Positions 10,652-62,099 of a stretch of 64,000 bases of DNA are shown piece by piece (positions within the stretch are counted from its first letter, which is position 1; each line of letters begins with the position of its first letter). Made by a program: the position numbers and the translations under genes. Source of the stretch: Fictibacillus halophilus (GTDB lineage: Bacteria > Bacillota > Bacilli > Bacillales > Fictibacillaceae); NCBI RefSeq assembly GCF_016401385.1, contig NZ_JAEACF010000001.1, positions 1,922,001 through 1,986,000 on the forward strand. Reading direction: 5' to 3'. Under the pieces are notes generated by a model. The model was not told the DNA's origin. It worked only from the letters and a program-made list of their open reading frames with translations, and made no database searches.

Positions 10652-12394
10652 TTATAGTCCGCATTTTAACTGTGCGTTACAGTTTGTACATGTGTTGCAT
10701 CCACCGATTTCTTTCACTTTCCCTTTTCTACATACCGGACAAGTGTTTCCAACTTCGTTACCAATGGTAACATCTGTAGAACGAAGATCAGTGATCGTAT
10801 CTAAAATAACAACTTTGCTTTTTTCTTCTTCCATACCAAGATCGATCTCAGTTTGTTCAAATGTCTCTTCCGCTTTTAGTGTAAGAACCTGTGAGTCACG
10901 GCTTCCATCTACATACACCGTTCCACCTTTTGCTCCACCCTTATAAAGGCGTTCGTAAACTTTTTGAACTTGATCAACTGTATAACCTTTAGGAGCGTTA
11001 ACCGTTTTTGAGATCGAGCTGTCTACCCAACGCTGGATGACACATTGAGTATCTGCATGTGCTTCTGGCGCAAGCTCCATTGCAGCAACAAACCACTCAG
11101 GCAGTTCATTTTCGTTCGCTTCAGGATTGCTGTCTAAATATTCTTTTACAATATCAGCTTTCACTTCAATAAATTTCCCAAGACGACCACTGCGGAAGTA
11201 TGAGAATGAGAAGTAAGGCTCTAATCCTGTGGAGACACCAACCATGGTTCCTGTGGATCCAGTTGGAGCAACAGTCAACAAGTGAGAGTTACGAATGCCA
11301 AATTCTAAGATGTCTTTGCGTAAATCTTCAGGAAGCTTCTTCATATACCCTGTTTCAGTAAATCGTCTACGCAACTCGTTAGTCGTCTCATCTGAATCGC
11401 CTTCTAAGAACGGGAAACTTCCCTTCTCTTTAGCAAGTTCGATTGAAGTGCGGTAAGCCGTTACAGCGATCGTCTCGAAAATTTGGTCTACCAGTTGGTT
11501 TCCTTCTTCAGATCCGTAAACGGTCTCGCAATAGATAAGAAGGTCATGTAATCCCATAACTCCTAACCCTACACGACGTTCCCCTAGTGCTTGGACTCGG
11601 TTTGGTTCCAAGAAGTATGGTGTTGCATCAATTACGTTGTCCTGCATACGTACGCCAACTTCAACCGTTTGTTTTAGTTTTTCAAAGTCCACCGTTTTGT
11701 TTTCTTTGTCAGCCATGTTTCCAAGGTTAACTGCAGCGAGGTTGCAGACACTGTATGGTGCAAGTGGTTGTTCTCCACATGGGTTCGTTGCTACAACTTT
11801 TTGTCCATAAGCTGTAGCGTTCGTCATGTCATTTGCATTATCGATAAAGAAAATTCCTGGCTCAGCTGAGTATGTTGCACAAATGTTGATCAGGTTCCAC
11901 AGTTCCCGTGCTTGAATTCGTTTGTATACGCGAATACCATAGCCTTTCTCTTCCCAAACACGAACATCTCCGACCTCATGCCACTCGTTGTTGTAAGCTT
12001 CCATCTCTTCCGGCGTGTATGCCTCAACGCTAGGAAAACGTAATAGATACTCAGAGTCATTTTCTACGGCTTCCATAAATTCCTTCGTGATCGTAACAGA
12101 GATGTTTGCACCTGTTAAAAATTCAGAATTATGAACGCTGTACGTTCCTCCATCGCGAAGCATTGTCTCAGCATCGCGTAGAACGTCCGAATCAAATCCG
12201 CCTGTCCCTGGAATATCCTTATAGCGAAGGATTCCTTCGTACATCGCTTTTTGAGCTGGTGTCAGTGGTGTAAACTTCAATTTATCTTGAGCGACTTGTT
12301 TAATCTTCTCGTCATTTGTATTTTCAATTAAGTAACGCAAAATGCGAGGATTTTGCATTTTAGAAATAATGAAATCAATGATGTCAGGGTGCCA
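10652..12394 (-). CDS. nrdJ: Adenosylcobalamin-dependent ribonucleotide reductase, exon 2
   Basis: 580 residues beginning at the codon for WHPDIIDFIISKMQN, which directly continues exon 1 once the intron is removed. It contains the active-site segment NPCGEQPLAPYSVCNLA with catalytic Cys and Glu, the phosphate-binding APTGSTGTMVGVSTG, and a C-terminal CPVCRKGK...CNTCTNC tail with redox or zinc Cys pairs. The joined protein has 853 residues, normal for the single-chain class II enzyme that makes deoxyribonucleotides using B12. The upstream open frame from an ATG at 12427 is intron sequence. No cobalamin riboswitch is seen. Confidence 0.96.
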   Translation of the reverse strand, partial: WHPDIIDFIISKMQNPRILRYLIENTNDEKIKQVAQDKLKFTPLTPAQKAMYEGILRYKDIPGTGGFDSDVLRDAETMLRDGGTYSVHNSEFLTGANISVTITKEFMEAVENDSEYLLRFPSVEAYTPEEMEAYNNEWHEVGDVRVWEEKGYGIRVYKRIQARELWNLINICATYSAEPGIFFIDNANDMTNATAYGQKVVATNPCGEQPLAPYSVCNLAAVNLGNMADKENKTVDFEKLKQTVEVGVRMQDNVIDATPYFLEPNRVQALGERRVGLGVMGLHDLLIYCETVYGSEEGNQLVDQIFETIAVTAYRTSIELAKEKGSFPFLEGDSDETTNELRRRFTETGYMKKLPEDLRKDILEFGIRNSHLLTVAPTGSTGTMVGVSTGLEPYFSFSYFRSGRLGKFIEVKADIVKEYLDSNPEANENELPEWFVAAMELAPEAHADTQCVIQRWVDSSISKTVNAPKGYTVDQVQKVYERLYKGGAKGGTVYVDGSRDSQVLTLKAEETFEQTEIDLGMEEEKSKVVILDTITDLRSTDVTIGNEVGNTCPVCRKGKVKEIGGCNTCTNCNAQLKCGL

Positions 12395-13516
12395 CGTTAA
12401 TACCCTCTCGTTAGAGATATTTCTCAAGGCAATAAGCCTATCGGGACTAGACTATATCATCATCCTCAGCATAACCTGTTAGGAGTCGGGCACTTCGGAA
12501 GAATCTCTCCCTACTCTACTCATTCACCTTAGCAAACTTTCGATAGTCGTTGAACCTTCCTCATATCCAAAAGGACTTAGAGGCTTGGCTGCTGATTTCC
12601 CAATCCAATCACTTTTCTAGCATTTACGTTCACCGTTTCCGGTCCCGATTTAGCAGATTGGCTCTAAGGGGTTTCCAGCAATTCACCCGATTTTCTAGTC
12701 GCTCATTTTCTGAACGACGCGGACTAAACAATTTATATAATCTTTTTCCTTACCATAGGTTTTTTCATGACATTTTCTACATAATGTTATACCATTAGAA
12801 ATTTCAAACATCTTTTCAGGAAATGTTTTTTTAGGAAAAATATGATGTGCTGCAATATCTCTTGTATCACTATTACATAGTGGCATTTTACAACGATACC
12901 CATCTCTTTTATATACTTTCAATCTCCACTCTTTGTAGTCTGCTGAATCGGTTATATCTATAGTTTCTTTTCGGTTATCAAAAAGATAATTTCTATAACA
13001 AGTTTGATTACAGAAGTTATTCTGAGACTTTTTATACGAAGAGAATCTAATCTCTTTGAGTTGATTGCAATAAAAGCATCTAATCTTTACTCTTTTTTTT
13101 ATTCTGGATGCCTTTATCTTATCAATGGTTTCCTTTGTCCTTTTTTTACCTCTATTTGGCTTACCCTTATCGATTCCGTGGTGGTTTCTGATAGGTATAC
13201 CATGATACCTAAGACGATCAAGTATAACCGAATAACTAACACCGCATTCATCAGCAATTTGAGTGTAACCTTTTTGATATTCTATATACTGTGTTTTTAA
13301 CCAGACTATATCATCATAAATTTTCCCTGAGTTTTTTATAACGGTTTTTCTTATCCCGTACTTTCTAAGTAACCTTTTTATTTGGTTTCTCGTTTTTCCT
13401 GTAAGAATACTAATTTCTAATGCAGATTTATTTTTATTAATGTATAAGTCATGTAGGTATTCATAGTTGTTCATTTGAATACCCCCTATAAAAGGAATTT
13501 TTTATTGTTTTTTTTA
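12395..13516 (-). mobile_element. Group IA intron interrupting nrdJ (1122 nt) with HNH gene
   Basis: The 5' exon ends GCGGAT and the 3' exon starts TGGCAC; the intron ends in G as group I introns do. The internal guide GTCCGC (12719-12724) pairs with the last six exon bases, including the required U-G wobble at the splice site. P (AATTGCTGGAAA), Q (AATCAGCAGCC), R (GTTCAACGACTA) and S (GATATAGTC) core elements are present in order. P3 (TCGGG/CCCGA) and P2 (GTCGTTC/GAGCGAC) can be drawn. A long P7-P3 insertion fits subgroup IA. Removing it joins MIMLAD to WHPDII in frame. The HNH ORF fills the P1 loop. Confidence 0.95.
12695..13474 (-). CDS. Intron-encoded HNH homing endonuclease
   Basis: 259 residues. 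The N-terminal half holds two helix-turn-helix-like DNA-reading segments (SALEISILTGKTRNQIKRLL and TQIADECGVSYSVILDRLRYHG). A CFYC...FCNQTC zinc-ribbon-like pair follows. The C-terminal HNH nuclease is RDGYRCKMPLC...AAHHIFPKK...NGITLCRKCHEKTYGKE, with the His-His, Asn and His of the motif. GGGGG lies 8 nt before the ATG. It should cut intronless nrdJ alleles and so mobilise the intron. Its last codons (VRVVQKMSD) are the same bases that form the internal guide sequence and P2 helix. Confidence 0.93.
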   Translation of the reverse strand: MNNYEYLHDLYINKNKSALEISILTGKTRNQIKRLLRKYGIRKTVIKNSGKIYDDIVWLKTQYIEYQKGYTQIADECGVSYSVILDRLRYHGIPIRNHHGIDKGKPNRGKKRTKETIDKIKASRIKKRVKIRCFYCNQLKEIRFSSYKKSQNNFCNQTCYRNYLFDNRKETIDITDSADYKEWRLKVYKRDGYRCKMPLCNSDTRDIAAHHIFPKKTFPEKMFEISNGITLCRKCHEKTYGKEKDYINCLVRVVQKMSD

Positions 13517-14335
13517 ATCCGCTAACATAATCATCTGAGCGCCTCTGCGACTTCCGCCCTGCTCAACCAGATGCGTCAACTTCGCGATGTCATCCAACCA
13601 GGATACTGATCCAGATGATTTTCCGTTTACGCCTCTTGCTAGTGCGTTCTTCGGTCGAAGCGTAGATCCGTTCGTTCCAACTCCGCCGCCGCGGCTCATG
13701 ATCTCCATGACTTGCTTACGGTGATCAGAGATGCCTTCACGCGAATCTTTCACGTATGGCATTACGTAACAGTTAAAATACGTTACATCTGTTTCTGCGC
13801 CTGCTCCGTATAAAACGCGTCCAGCAGGTACAAAATTCATTTCTGAAAGTTCTTTATAAAACTTTTTGAATGATTCTTGGCGTTTTTCTTCTGTCGTTTC
13901 CACAGATGCTAAGCCTGTGGCATTTCTTAGTGCGATCTGCTCGTAGTAAACTTCTAACGGCTTGTCCATCACATCTAGTGAACGTGTGATCAAACCAGAT
14001 TCAGCTTCTTCCGGCTTTTCTAGCACTGCTTTGAACTCATCTTCAACCAATACAACTGCGTTTTTATCATCCCAGTTGACAGATTGAATATAGCCTAGCC
14101 CTCTTGCTGGAAATTTTGGGTCTTCTTTTACCGTTAATACAACAAAATCACCCGGTTTTAAGGTTTTCTTCTCTGTGTCTTTGAAGCTGTATCGATCTAG
14201 CATGACCAGCCGTGAAACACCTTTGTGTGTTGTTTTCATTGTAGAAGTTACGGGGTGCACTTGTGGAAATTGAGCTATATCACTGTTGAGAGCGTCAATA
14301 TTAATACCCTTTTTAACAGTTGCGACTGTGTCCAT
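13517..14335 (-). CDS. nrdJ: Adenosylcobalamin-dependent ribonucleotide reductase, exon 1
   Basis: 273 residues (MDTVATVKKGINIDALNSD...GGSRRGAQMIMLAD) ending exactly at the intron boundary. Unspliced message meets a TAA as the first intron codon. The segment includes FNCYVMPY, which carries an active-site Cys of class II enzymes, and the nucleotide-binding GGGVGTNGSTLRPK. GAGGAGG precedes the ATG. The ribonucleotide reductase gene sits between splB and lipM, an addition relative to the B. subtilis order. Expression should require RNA splicing of the group I intron. Confidence 0.95.
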
Positions 14336-16106: not shown

Positions 16107-17570
16107 TTAAACTTGTTTTGAATATTTTAAGATTGGCTTTCTTGCGGCTGTTGCTTCATCCAGTCGTTTAACAACTGTAGTGTGAGGAGCTTCTTGAACC
16201 AATTCAGGTGTTTCTTCTGCTTCTTTTGAAATCTGAATCATCTTTTCGATAAATTCATCGAGTGTTTCTTTCGATTCCGTTTCTGTTGGCTCGATCATGA
16301 TCGCTTCTTCTACACTTAACGGGAAGTAGATCGTTGGCGGGTGATAGCCAAAGTCTAAGAGACGTTTTGCGATATCAAGCGTTCTTACGCCAAGTTTCTT
16401 CTGACGGCGACCTGATAATACGAACTCGTGCTTACAGTGTTGTGTAAATGGAAGATCGAAATGAGGTTCAAGTCGGCGCATCATGTAGTTAGCATTTAAT
16501 ACGGCGTTCTCTGATACTTGATGTAACCCGTCTGGCCCCATCGTCATGATGTACGTAAATGCTCGTACGTTAATGCCGAAGTTGCCATAAAAAGGCTTCA
16601 CTCGTCCGATCGATTGCGGGCGATCATATTCGAATTTATAAAGATCATCTTCTTTAACAAGAACTGGTTTTGGCAAGAATGGAATCAGATCTGCCTTAAC
16701 CCCAACTGGTCCTGATCCTGGTCCACCACCACCGTGTGGCCCTGTGAACGTTTTATGAAGGTTCAAGTGAACGACATCAAAGCCCATGTCTCCAGGTCGA
16801 GCAAATCCTAATATCGCATTTGCGTTCGCTCCGTCATAATATAGCTTTCCGCCAGCTTCATGGACGATCTTAGCCATTTCTAATATATGCTCTTCAAAAA
16901 GACCAAGCGTATTTGGATTTGTAAGCATAAGAGCCGCAACATCTTGATCGACTACTCGTTTCAAATCTTCTAGATCAACAAGACCGCGCTCATCGGATTT
17001 CACCGTGATCGATTCAAAACCTGCAACGGTTGCAGACGCTGGATTAGTTCCGTGCGCTGAATCAGGAACGATTACTTTTGTACGATTGAAATCACCGTTT
17101 GCTTCATGGTAAGCACGGATCATCATAAGACCTGTCCATTCACCATGTGCACCAGCTGCCGGCTGCAGAGTTACTTCGTCCATACCTGTGATCTCAGCTA
17201 GAGATGTTTGCAGACGGTACATCATTTCCATCGCACCTTGAACCGTTTCTTCTTCTTGAAGCGGATGGATATTTGCAAATCCAGGGAAACGTGCTACATC
17301 TTCATTGATCTTCGGATTATATTTCATCGTACATGATCCAAGTGGATAAAAACCAGAATCCACACCATGGTTACGATTGGATAACGCTGTGTAATGACGA
17401 ACGATTTGAAGCTCTGACACTTCAGGAAGATCCGCTTCTTCCGTACGCAAATAATCGGAAGGGATGATAGATTCTACGTTAATCTCTGGAACGTCAAGTT
17501 CAGGGATGCTGTACCCTACTCGACCTGGTTTAGACAATTCAAAAATTAATGACTGATGTTCTGTACGCAT
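16107..17570 (-). CDS. gcvPB: Glycine dehydrogenase (decarboxylating) subunit 2
   Basis: 487 residues, the P2 half of the two-subunit P-protein. The PLP-binding lysine lies in [20 protein letters not shown], a glycine-rich loop diagnostic of the family. With GcvPA it decarboxylates glycine and passes the methylamine to lipoyl-GcvH. GGAGGGA precedes the ATG. It overlaps gcvPA by 25 nt, consistent with coupled translation of the heteromer, and ends the riboswitch-controlled gcvT-PA-PB operon. Confidence 0.98.
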
Positions 17571-20082: not shown

Positions 20083-20288
20083 AAAAAGGACAGAAAGACC
20101 CCTTATAAATGGGATCCTCTGTCCTGCAACCTGTAAGTTTCTCAAGTAAATATCCTTGAGTTTCTTCGTTGGTGGCTTTCATCTATTAAAAAAGCACTCT
20201 CCAGAGATGCGTCTAGCAAGAGTCTTTTTGCCTGAGAGTTTCACAATTGTTTGCTCCTTCGGCGCCGCTAACGCAGTCTCTCCTCTTA
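20083..20288 (-). ncRNA. Tandem glycine riboswitch with terminator before gcvT
   Basis: On the minus strand the first aptamer has GAGGAGAGACTGCG, GCCGAAGGAGCAA and ACTCTCAGGCAAAAAGAC. The second has CCACCAACGAAGAAAC, a P3 hairpin and GAAACTTACAGG...AGGACAGAGG. The 3' end AGGACAGA can pair with TCTGTCCT followed by seven T, an intrinsic terminator (about 20083-20127). Glycine binding should prevent termination and turn the operon on, as in B. subtilis. The adjoining 120 nt toward yqhH hold the divergent promoters. Confidence 0.95.
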
Positions 20289-20412
20289 CTTTCATTCGCG
20301 AGTATGTTATTGTCCAAGGTCGCACATACTATTACTATGTTTACTACATTATTATCCTATCATTTTTACAAAAGGAATGGCAACGAACTTTTTTAAAGAA
20401 AGGAAATCCGTT

Positions 20413-27744: not shown

Positions 27745-27819
27745 TGGGCTATAGCCAAGCGGTAAGGCAACGGACTTTGACTCCGTCATGCGTTGGTTCG
27801 AATCCAGCTAGCCCAGCCA
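27745..27819 (+). tRNA. tRNA-Gln (TTG)
   Basis: Acceptor stem TGGGCTA pairs with TAGCCCA; the anticodon loop ACTTTGACT gives TTG; the T-loop GGTTCGAATCC is standard and CCA is encoded. It is a single tRNA gene divergent from comGA, 75 nt with CCA. Confidence 0.95.
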
Positions 27820-61557: not shown

Positions 61558-61633
<76 letters not shown>

Positions 61634-61643
61634 AAATATGTAA

Positions 61644-61736
61644 TGGAGGAGGTAGAGGGATTCGAACCCCCGCGGGTCGTTAAACCCCTGTCGGTTTTCA
61701 AGACCGATCCCTTCAGCCGGACTTGGGTATACCTCC
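61644..61736 (-). tRNA. tRNA-Ser (TGA)
   Basis: Class II tRNA with a long variable arm, acceptor GGAGGTA/TACCTCC, anticodon loop CTTGAAA giving TGA and encoded CCA. The discriminator base reads T. Confidence 0.95.
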
Positions 61737-61743
61737 TCGATTA

Positions 61744-61820
61744 TGGTGGACCCTGTAGGACTCGAACCTACGACCAATCGGTTATGAGCCGACCGCTCTG
61801 ACCAACTGAGCTAAGGGTCC
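61744..61820 (-). tRNA. tRNA with CAT anticodon, probably tRNA-Ile2
   Basis: Acceptor GGACCCT/AGGGTCC fully paired, anticodon loop CTCATAA giving CAT, encoded CCA. Paired first base excludes initiator Met. The body resembles B. subtilis tRNA-Ile whose CAT is modified to lysidine; the elongator Met is a separate gene in the same cluster. Confidence 0.85.
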
Positions 61821-61845
61821 AATGGAAAAACTTATGTAAATGTTA

Positions 61846-61922
61846 TGGGGCGGACGAGGGGAATCGAACCCCCGAATGTCGGAACCACAATCCGATGCGT
61901 TAACCACTTCGCCACGACCGCC
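61846..61922 (-). tRNA. tRNA-His (GTG)
   Basis: G at position -1 encoded, anticodon loop TTGTGGT giving GTG, T-loop GGTTCGATTCC, encoded CCA. The acceptor arms GCGGTCG and CGTCCGC leave a U-U mismatch at pair 5-68. Confidence 0.93.
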
Positions 61923-61943
61923 ATCGTGAGTAAAGAAACATTT

Positions 61944-62020
61944 TGGTAGCGGCGGAGGGAGTCGAACCCACGACCTCACGGGTATGAACCGTACGCTCTA
62001 GCCAGCTGAGCTACACCGCC
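61944..62020 (-). tRNA. tRNA-Met (CAT), elongator
   Basis: Acceptor GGCGGTG with CGCCGCT (terminal G-U pair), anticodon loop TTCATAC giving CAT, encoded CCA. The sequence follows the B. subtilis elongator tRNA-Met pattern. Confidence 0.93.
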
Positions 62021-62024
62021 AAAA

Positions 62025-62099
62025 TGGCTCCACAGGTAGGACTCGAACCTACGACCGATCGGTTAACAGCCGATAGCTCTACCACTGAGCTACTGTGGA
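62025..62099 (-). tRNA. tRNA-Asn (GTT)
   Basis: Acceptor TCCACAG/CTGTGGA, anticodon loop CTGTTAA giving GTT, discriminator G, encoded CCA. First gene of the tRNA operon. Confidence 0.96.

Follow-up and report, generated by a model that had tools for sequence, protein, structure and literature searches.

The nrdJ gene of Fictibacillus halophilus, encoding a B12-dependent class II ribonucleotide reductase, is interrupted after codon 273 by a 1122-nt insert that is very probably (about 0.92) a self-splicing group I intron, likely of subgroup IA, with homing driven by its own HNH endonuclease. The splice sites are exact, the guide pairs with the exon end through a U.G pair, the core covaries, the HNH open reading frame (ORF) is intact, and the site is occupied in some species and empty in others. 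Positions below refer to the window, the whole 64,000-nucleotide stretch of DNA analysed, and the nrdJ features, all on its minus strand, are as follows:

13517 to 14335 (minus): nrdJ exon 1, codons 1-273, ending MLAD; ORF and NF005991 match
13517 to 13522 (minus): 5′ exon hexamer GCGGAT, exon strand of P1; in 29/29 same-site introns
12395 to 13516 (minus): group I intron, 1122 nt, starting TAA and ending G; RF00028, spliced frame and same-site relatives
13514 to 13516 (minus): in-frame stop TAA, first intron codon; TAA or TGA in 29/29
13482 to 13487 (minus): AGGGGG, likely ribosome-binding site of the intron ORF, read from the sequence
12695 to 13474 (minus): intron ORF, 259 aa, in the P1 loop; HNH domain PF01844 above cut-off
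12428 to 12746 (minus): RF00028 covariance-model match, 80.7 bits, E 6.3e-19
12719 to 12724 (minus): internal guide sequence GTCCGC; in 29/29 same-site introns
12698 to 12718 (minus): P2 hairpin, 8 pairs, 100% of cells paired, 4 two-sided changes
12684 to 12690 (minus): P3 5′ strand, paired in 100% of cells, with a two-sided change in one pair
12544 to 12548 (minus): P7 5′ strand GACTA, invariant, paired in 18/18
12486 to 12492 (minus): P3 3′ strand, from the same 18-intron structure test
12463 to 12484 (minus): P8, 2/7 pairs changed on both sides
12450 to 12454 (minus): P7 3′ strand TAGTC, invariant, paired in 18/18
12395 (minus): terminal intron guanosine at the 3′ splice site; G ends all 38 introns extracted (29 distinct)
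10652 to 12394 (minus): nrdJ exon 2, codons 274-853, starting WHPDI; NF005991 match

Splice sites and ribozyme core

Exon 1 ends in ATGTTAGCGGAT and runs into the codon TAA, the intron closes with ATTAACG, and exon 2 begins with TGGCACCCTGAC. Joining 13517 to 12394 produces an 853-aa NrdJ with zero internal stops, which bears out the uninterrupted class II reductase that a preliminary description had predicted. Against NF005991, the equivalog model for the B12-dependent class II reductase, the exons score 505 bits (exon 1) and 1136 bits (exon 2), and exon 2 alone exceeds the cut-off of 854 bits, placing the product within class II NrdJ. That description had also proposed a comparison with relatives lacking the intron. 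A search of predicted proteins returned an uninterrupted 853-aa protein (P0051), encoded on a 284,459-base contig and 100% identical to spliced NrdJ over its whole length. As a NrdJ search of the host genome finds the interrupted copy and a class I homologue, and nothing else, we read P0051 as the probable product of an intron-free allele from a near relative of the host. The best named matches are 98-99% identical and nearly all from Fictibacillus. An intein is ruled out, since the insert opens with an in-frame stop.

The genome also encodes class I reductase alpha and beta genes, both above their NCBIfam cut-offs. These rule out nrdJ as the only reductase, and the essentiality assumed in the preliminary description is therefore not established.

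The RF00028 match lies well above the curated cut-off of 50 bits and is the sole intron match to Rfam in the window; together with the covariation, the 29 same-site introns and the identical uninterrupted protein, it sustains the group I assignment and the splice sites first proposed. The hexamer GCGGAT (13522-13517) pairs with the guide GTCCGC (12724-12719) with U.G at the 5′ splice site, exactly as previously described, and the P3 and P7 pairings also hold, P3 by covariation and P7 by pairing in every intron aligned.

The core was aligned from the guide to the 3′ end for 18 introns at this codon (the host intron, two others of the genus and 15 of named genomes). The structure keeps 59 of 67 RNAalifold pairs, drops eight (five between the guide and the 3′ exon, three crossing P7) and adds P7 and P7.2; its helices are P2, P3, P4, P5, P5a, further P5 helices, P6, P6a, P7, P7.2, P8 and P9.2. 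RNAalifold had paired the guide with the 3′ exon, and these pairs were left out because the 5′ exon is absent from the alignment. Across the 18 introns 99.4% of structure cells are paired, a figure biased towards these sequences, as the structure was mostly drawn by RNAalifold on the same alignment; sliding the helix partners lowers pairing to 32.5-39.0%. Two-sided changes occur in 26 of 68 pairs versus a shuffle mean of 11.0, with none of 500 shuffles as high. Covarying helices are P2, P3, P4, P5, P6a, P8 and P9.2; P6 and P7 are invariant but paired, and P1 and P7, being without any variation, contribute no covariation signal.

The intervening ORF puts 792 nt between the exon strand of P1 and the guide. 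In G011, a relative without the ORF, these strands fold as an 8-bp hairpin beside P2 (59-nt piece, z -5.2), and the extension of P1 that the first two bases of the intron stop TAA can provide is present in that fold. Subgroup IA is defined by extra hairpins, P7.1 and P7.2, between P7 and P3. Two hairpins occupy this interval in the host intron, folding no better than shuffles (z -0.9), and one is found in the short intron type (z -3.0); across 9 rows, a single P7.2 pair is changed on both sides. The arrangement is consistent with subgroup IA, the likely assignment.

The HNH reading frame and its overlap with the guide

The intron ORF was overlooked in the earlier sequence-only reading. Its AlphaFold2 model has a mean pLDDT of 82.8 and a pTM of 0.38, which leaves the placement of domains uncertain; in it we read a predicted layout of two three-helix helix-turn-helix-like units, a beta ribbon and, at the C terminus, an HNH fold. 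PDB searches returned a generic HNH fold and a helix-turn-helix repeat and nothing else; in one of them the best E was 0.016, with none at or below 0.001. Four mid-protein cysteines (a four-cysteine ribbon) and the HNH region are invariant in an alignment of 23 sequences, including that of the host. In the four pairs with dS below 1.2, from 105 pairs of 15 ORFs, dN/dS is 0.12-0.34. Closer homologues, at 76-94% identity, came from a protein search without genome context (P0001-P0003), and single-protein scans of genome and viral contigs found no relative.

The stop of the ORF at 12695 lies 3′ of the guide, so the guide falls within coding sequence: GTC CGC doubles as codons 251-252 (V251-R252), and the P2 hairpin overlaps the last codons (VVQKMSD). 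The same guide is kept by 12 introns that lack the ORF, and the RNA thus needs it independently of the protein.

In the mechanism we favour, translation of exon 1 would halt at the first intron codon, keeping the ribosome off the ribozyme core, and a guanosine bound in P7 would start two transesterifications that excise the intron and restore full-length NrdJ. The HNH protein would be translated from its own start codon within the P1 loop and would cut intron-free nrdJ alleles near codon 273, with repair copying the intron in. What speaks against self-splicing is the spacing of the P1 strands and the position of the ORF over P1 and P2, as ribosomes there could hinder splicing.

Distribution and descent of the codon 273 intron

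An HNH alignment scan of named genomes gave 67 loci with some similarity. The analysis covered the top 15, at 48-60% identity, and the lower-ranked L068, with the other 51 outside it; each of the 15 falls within nrdJ, at the junction of codons 273 and 274, and no NrdJ is found at L068. Carriers at codon 273|274 include Priestia, Robertmurraya, Mesobacillus, Neobacillus, Sporosarcina and other Bacillales, and a match to the core occurs in at least 142 of 397 genomes, mostly to a partial core (two candidates scored per genome).

Among 50 loci examined, 38 have an intron at the site and 12 were unfit for the pattern; nine of the 38 are letter-identical to kept introns and were dropped, leaving 29. 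Every one of these has GCGGAT, GTCCGC and TAA or TGA as first codon, under a pattern that fixed four of six exon letters (GCNGAY), required a stop at the intron start and sought the guide as GT[CT][CT]G[CT]. A looser pattern (GC, any base, GA, then T or C, stop not required) gave TAA in 16 and TGA in 1 of the 17 rows listed. Empty sites, 65 in number from 75 loci and one of them a misread peptide, have GCGGAT in five cases, all among the 43 that conform to GCNGAY; a Fisher p for the hexamer at occupied versus empty sites overstates the case, as related genomes are not independent. The ORF is intact in 15 of the 29 (257-278 aa), broken in two (L066 and L067) and absent from 12, whose longest ORFs are 22-53 aa; the ORF of G112, called intact by length only, is 57% identical to that of the host.

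Within the genus, codon 273|274 is occupied in three genomes and empty in 15, with GCGGAT at 1/15 of the empty sites and an ending in GAC at 13/15. The gene is interrupted in nine of the 18 genomes, at four places. On a genus nrdJ tree built without columns 760-860, which surround sites A and B, each place requires as many changes as it has carriers (A 4/4, B, the codon 273 intron, 3/3, C 2/2, D 2/2). The three site-B carriers stand apart on this tree, yet their cores form one 100/100 clade. The host core is 97.6% identical to that of G011 and the whole exons 87.5%; the host exons are 92-93% identical to those of clade mates without the codon 273 intron. The core is constrained and, on average, better conserved than exon DNA, which makes the pairwise comparison uninformative by itself. 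Taken with the trees it favours transfer, with multiple loss as a possible alternative.

The strongest competing explanation is a splicing but immobile intron, inherited vertically with many losses, in which the HNH ORF would be a passenger or a maturase. We regard this as unlikely. Core and exon trees agree across genera for several pairs, grouping the same genera, so that much of the descent may be vertical, and the 12 introns without an ORF above 53 aa retain both guide and core. Four clade comparisons by the AU test divide evenly: in one, the core data reject a grouping seen in the exon tree (p-AU 0.0008), and in another, a grouping from the core tree is disfavoured by the exon data (p-AU 0.03), both groupings having been picked after viewing the trees. 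The other two are without conflict (p 0.42 and 0.26). A test for exon co-conversion gave a weak signal that depended on the window, with p about 0.03 in two of three and 0.11 in the third, all picked post hoc. The codon 273 intron was found on no viral contig and in no phage or plasmid record: a DNA search of phages and plasmids yielded 122 phage and 3 plasmid records sharing part of the core, none covering 80%, and a search of phages with the HNH protein yielded eight records alike in the nuclease domain, no match extending over 80% of the protein. An immobile intron accords poorly, however, with an ORF that is intact and evolves at low dN/dS in related introns, with the patchy occupancy and one change per carrier within the genus, and with the two AU conflicts. 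Homing, with stretches of vertical descent, is the likely history, and patchy occupancy alongside intact, broken and missing ORFs fits the usual homing cycle of gain, decay and loss.

Two further possibilities concern the class I reductase, and both appear very improbable. Were the intron defective, nrdJ would be a pseudogene and the class I enzyme encoded in the genome would serve the cell; both exons are intact, however, the protein is 98-99% identical to those of uninterrupted relatives, and the guide, exon hexamer and terminal G are the same as in 28 other introns. Retention of the intron could instead act as a switch between NrdJ and the class I reductase, since the stop at intron codon 1 would give a 273-aa fragment from retained RNA and two reductase classes are at hand; nine of the 18 genus genomes, however, are without any nrdJ interruption. 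A prophage reductase carrying a phage intron, rather than a chromosomal housekeeping gene, can be practically dismissed: phage reductases often have group I introns, and the accessible part of PMC3653736 describes split nrdJ genes in two phages, but NrdJ of the same family is present in 18/18 genomes of the genus and 107/120 of the order, and the eight phage records match only part of the HNH protein.

An intron-rich gene among known intron hosts

The preliminary description regarded nrdJ as an unusual host, a view that its frequency of interruption overturns: in addition to half of the genus, 32 of 107 NrdJ-bearing genomes of the order have an interrupted gene. In this sample of 120 genomes drawn evenly across the order, the 107 genes comprise 73 uninterrupted, 32 interrupted on one contig and two split over contigs (G048 and G089), the last two left out of the intron count. 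Exons end at codons 263, 265, 273, 480 and 652, with single cases at codons 189, about 460-480 and 482. Thirty interrupted loci were rescanned, of which 18 have RF00028 above cut-off, three only below it and nine none; the nine comprise six with the codon-480 insert, one with a group II intron match within nrdJ (G127, L201) and two unclassified (G082 and G097). Group II and group I matches occur together in G065 (L206), with three breaks in one nrdJ. By eye, the ORF at site D in G008 looks like an HNH gene.

In at least seven genomes, a second intron lies just upstream of the codon 273 intron, separated from it by an exon of 30 nt (G011, G007, G112, L055, L062, L065) or 24 nt (G095). The upstream insert matches RF00028 in 7/7, below cut-off in G011 and G095, and carries a LAGLIDADG ORF in G011. 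The tandem-intron loci are:

L037, L038, L055, L062, L065 and L192: exon of 30 nt, 10 codons
L187: exon of 24 nt, 8 codons

Of 18 loci probed for an insert at codon 480|481, 16 yielded one:

L039, L040, L053, L057, L060, L066, L195-L200, L202, L204, L205 and L207: codon-480 insert

The insert is 245-290 nt long at 13 of these loci and 757-1234 nt at the other three, starts after TGTGGT, just past NPCG, and ends in G before GAAC; its site lies one codon beyond the cysteine of NPCGE, the radical cysteine. The 12 of these 16 loci that were scanned have no Rfam match in the insert, and a lax Rfam scan of two loci gave chance-level matches only (on the insert, SNORA65 at 19.4 bits versus 70). A consensus fold shows two-sided changes in 31 of 63 pairs and includes a helix that resembles P1 and has U.G at the 5′ end, where an exon-intron double change occurs in 1 of 12 rows; the fold offers no convincing candidate for P7. 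A broad model search for this RNA matched one of 299 genomes. The insert also lies at the matching place of distant NrdJ of about 40% identity (L209 and L211). Similar RNAs are found outside nrdJ: one with a changed guide (L217, about 1456-1710, minus) seems by eye to split the Walker A motif of a helicase-like gene, and a relative (L219, 1501-1688, minus) lies beside what appears by eye to be a conjugation-type coupling-protein ORF. The codon-480 insert may be a divergent group I lineage.

Taken as a whole, we tentatively suggest, with somewhat less than even confidence, that the chromosomal nrdJ of Bacillales is an undescribed collector of introns, with no fewer than five recurrent sites that host different introns (their ORFs being HNH, LAGLIDADG or of other types), some group II introns, micro-exons of 24-30 nt, and a codon-480 intron that is possibly a separate, compact group-I-like lineage.

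The host genome contains a second group I intron in the T-loop of tmRNA, near smpB by eye (G000:C1:2567393-2567669, minus; L002 1501-1777), where the tmRNA matches at 170 bits and its intron at 35.7 bits, below cut-off; 883 such tmRNA introns are reported in the accessible text of PMC11915505. Other features of the window are a glycine riboswitch aptamer (20210-20295, minus, 70.1 bits), an ORF resembling a glycine cleavage protein by eye (16107-17570), a six-tRNA gene cluster (61558-62099, minus) and a lone tRNA-Gln (27745-27819, plus).

One metabolic gene displays, at one codon, all the stages of homing: empty, with the endonuclease, with a broken one and without. The nucleotides that serve as ribozyme guide and P2 also encode the end of a protein, a clean case that can be compared over many genomes. 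The tandem introns pose the question of how a pair of ribozymes can splice a bacterial mRNA when only 24-30 nt of exon lie between them, and Bacillales nrdJ genes annotated as frameshifted or split may be whole genes with introns.

The codon 273 intron is of a well-known kind; the intron-rich nrdJ setting is little described. Accessible parts of the literature place group I introns in recA, nrdA, nrdE, nrdF, thyA, flagellin, dsrA and a Nostoc RIR gene (PMC3984707, PMC1995217, PMC3653736, PMC2795772, PMC12702839, PMC6145125, PMC3019208, PMC4853749), and the same set includes inteins in metagenomic nrdJ and mentions over 100 group I introns curated in RNRdb, with no by-gene list in those accessible parts. 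Searches of open-access literature gave no title or abstract dealing with introns in Bacillales nrdJ, and RNRdb may hold such cases.

Among the closest parallels are the same-site Bacillales introns, which share the codon, exon hexamer, guide and core, with HNH proteins 48-60% identical in the 15 named loci; they differ in that the ORF is absent or broken in some and a second nrdJ intron is present in some. Group I introns in phage and prophage reductase genes, several with HNH endonucleases, are tabulated in the accessible portions of PMC1995217 and also described in those of PMC3653736, and those of T-even nrdB (I-TevIII), Twort nrdE (I-TwoI), SPbeta bnrdF and Bacillus anthracis nrdE (I-BanI) likewise combine a reductase host with a homing ORF. 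I-BanI is a GIY-YIG enzyme (PMC1995217, PMC3653736, same portions). These introns, as far as those sources describe them, reside in class I genes, mostly of phages, whereas the present one interrupts a chromosomal class II gene, the endonucleases being compared by description only. Group I intron ORFs that extend into core sequence are described in the accessible part of the review PMC3984707; in the nrdJ intron the overlap takes in the guide itself. The Nostoc RIR intron, as presented in the accessible text of PMC12702839 and PMC1995217, is likewise of group I, and its host is a reductase gene on a bacterial chromosome. The cyanobacterial case differs in phylum and, judging from a paper title, carries an insertion element rather than an HNH ORF. 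We take the cyanobacterial RIR to be B12-dependent, as a title cited in PMC12702839 hints, like the NrdJ that hosts the intron described here.
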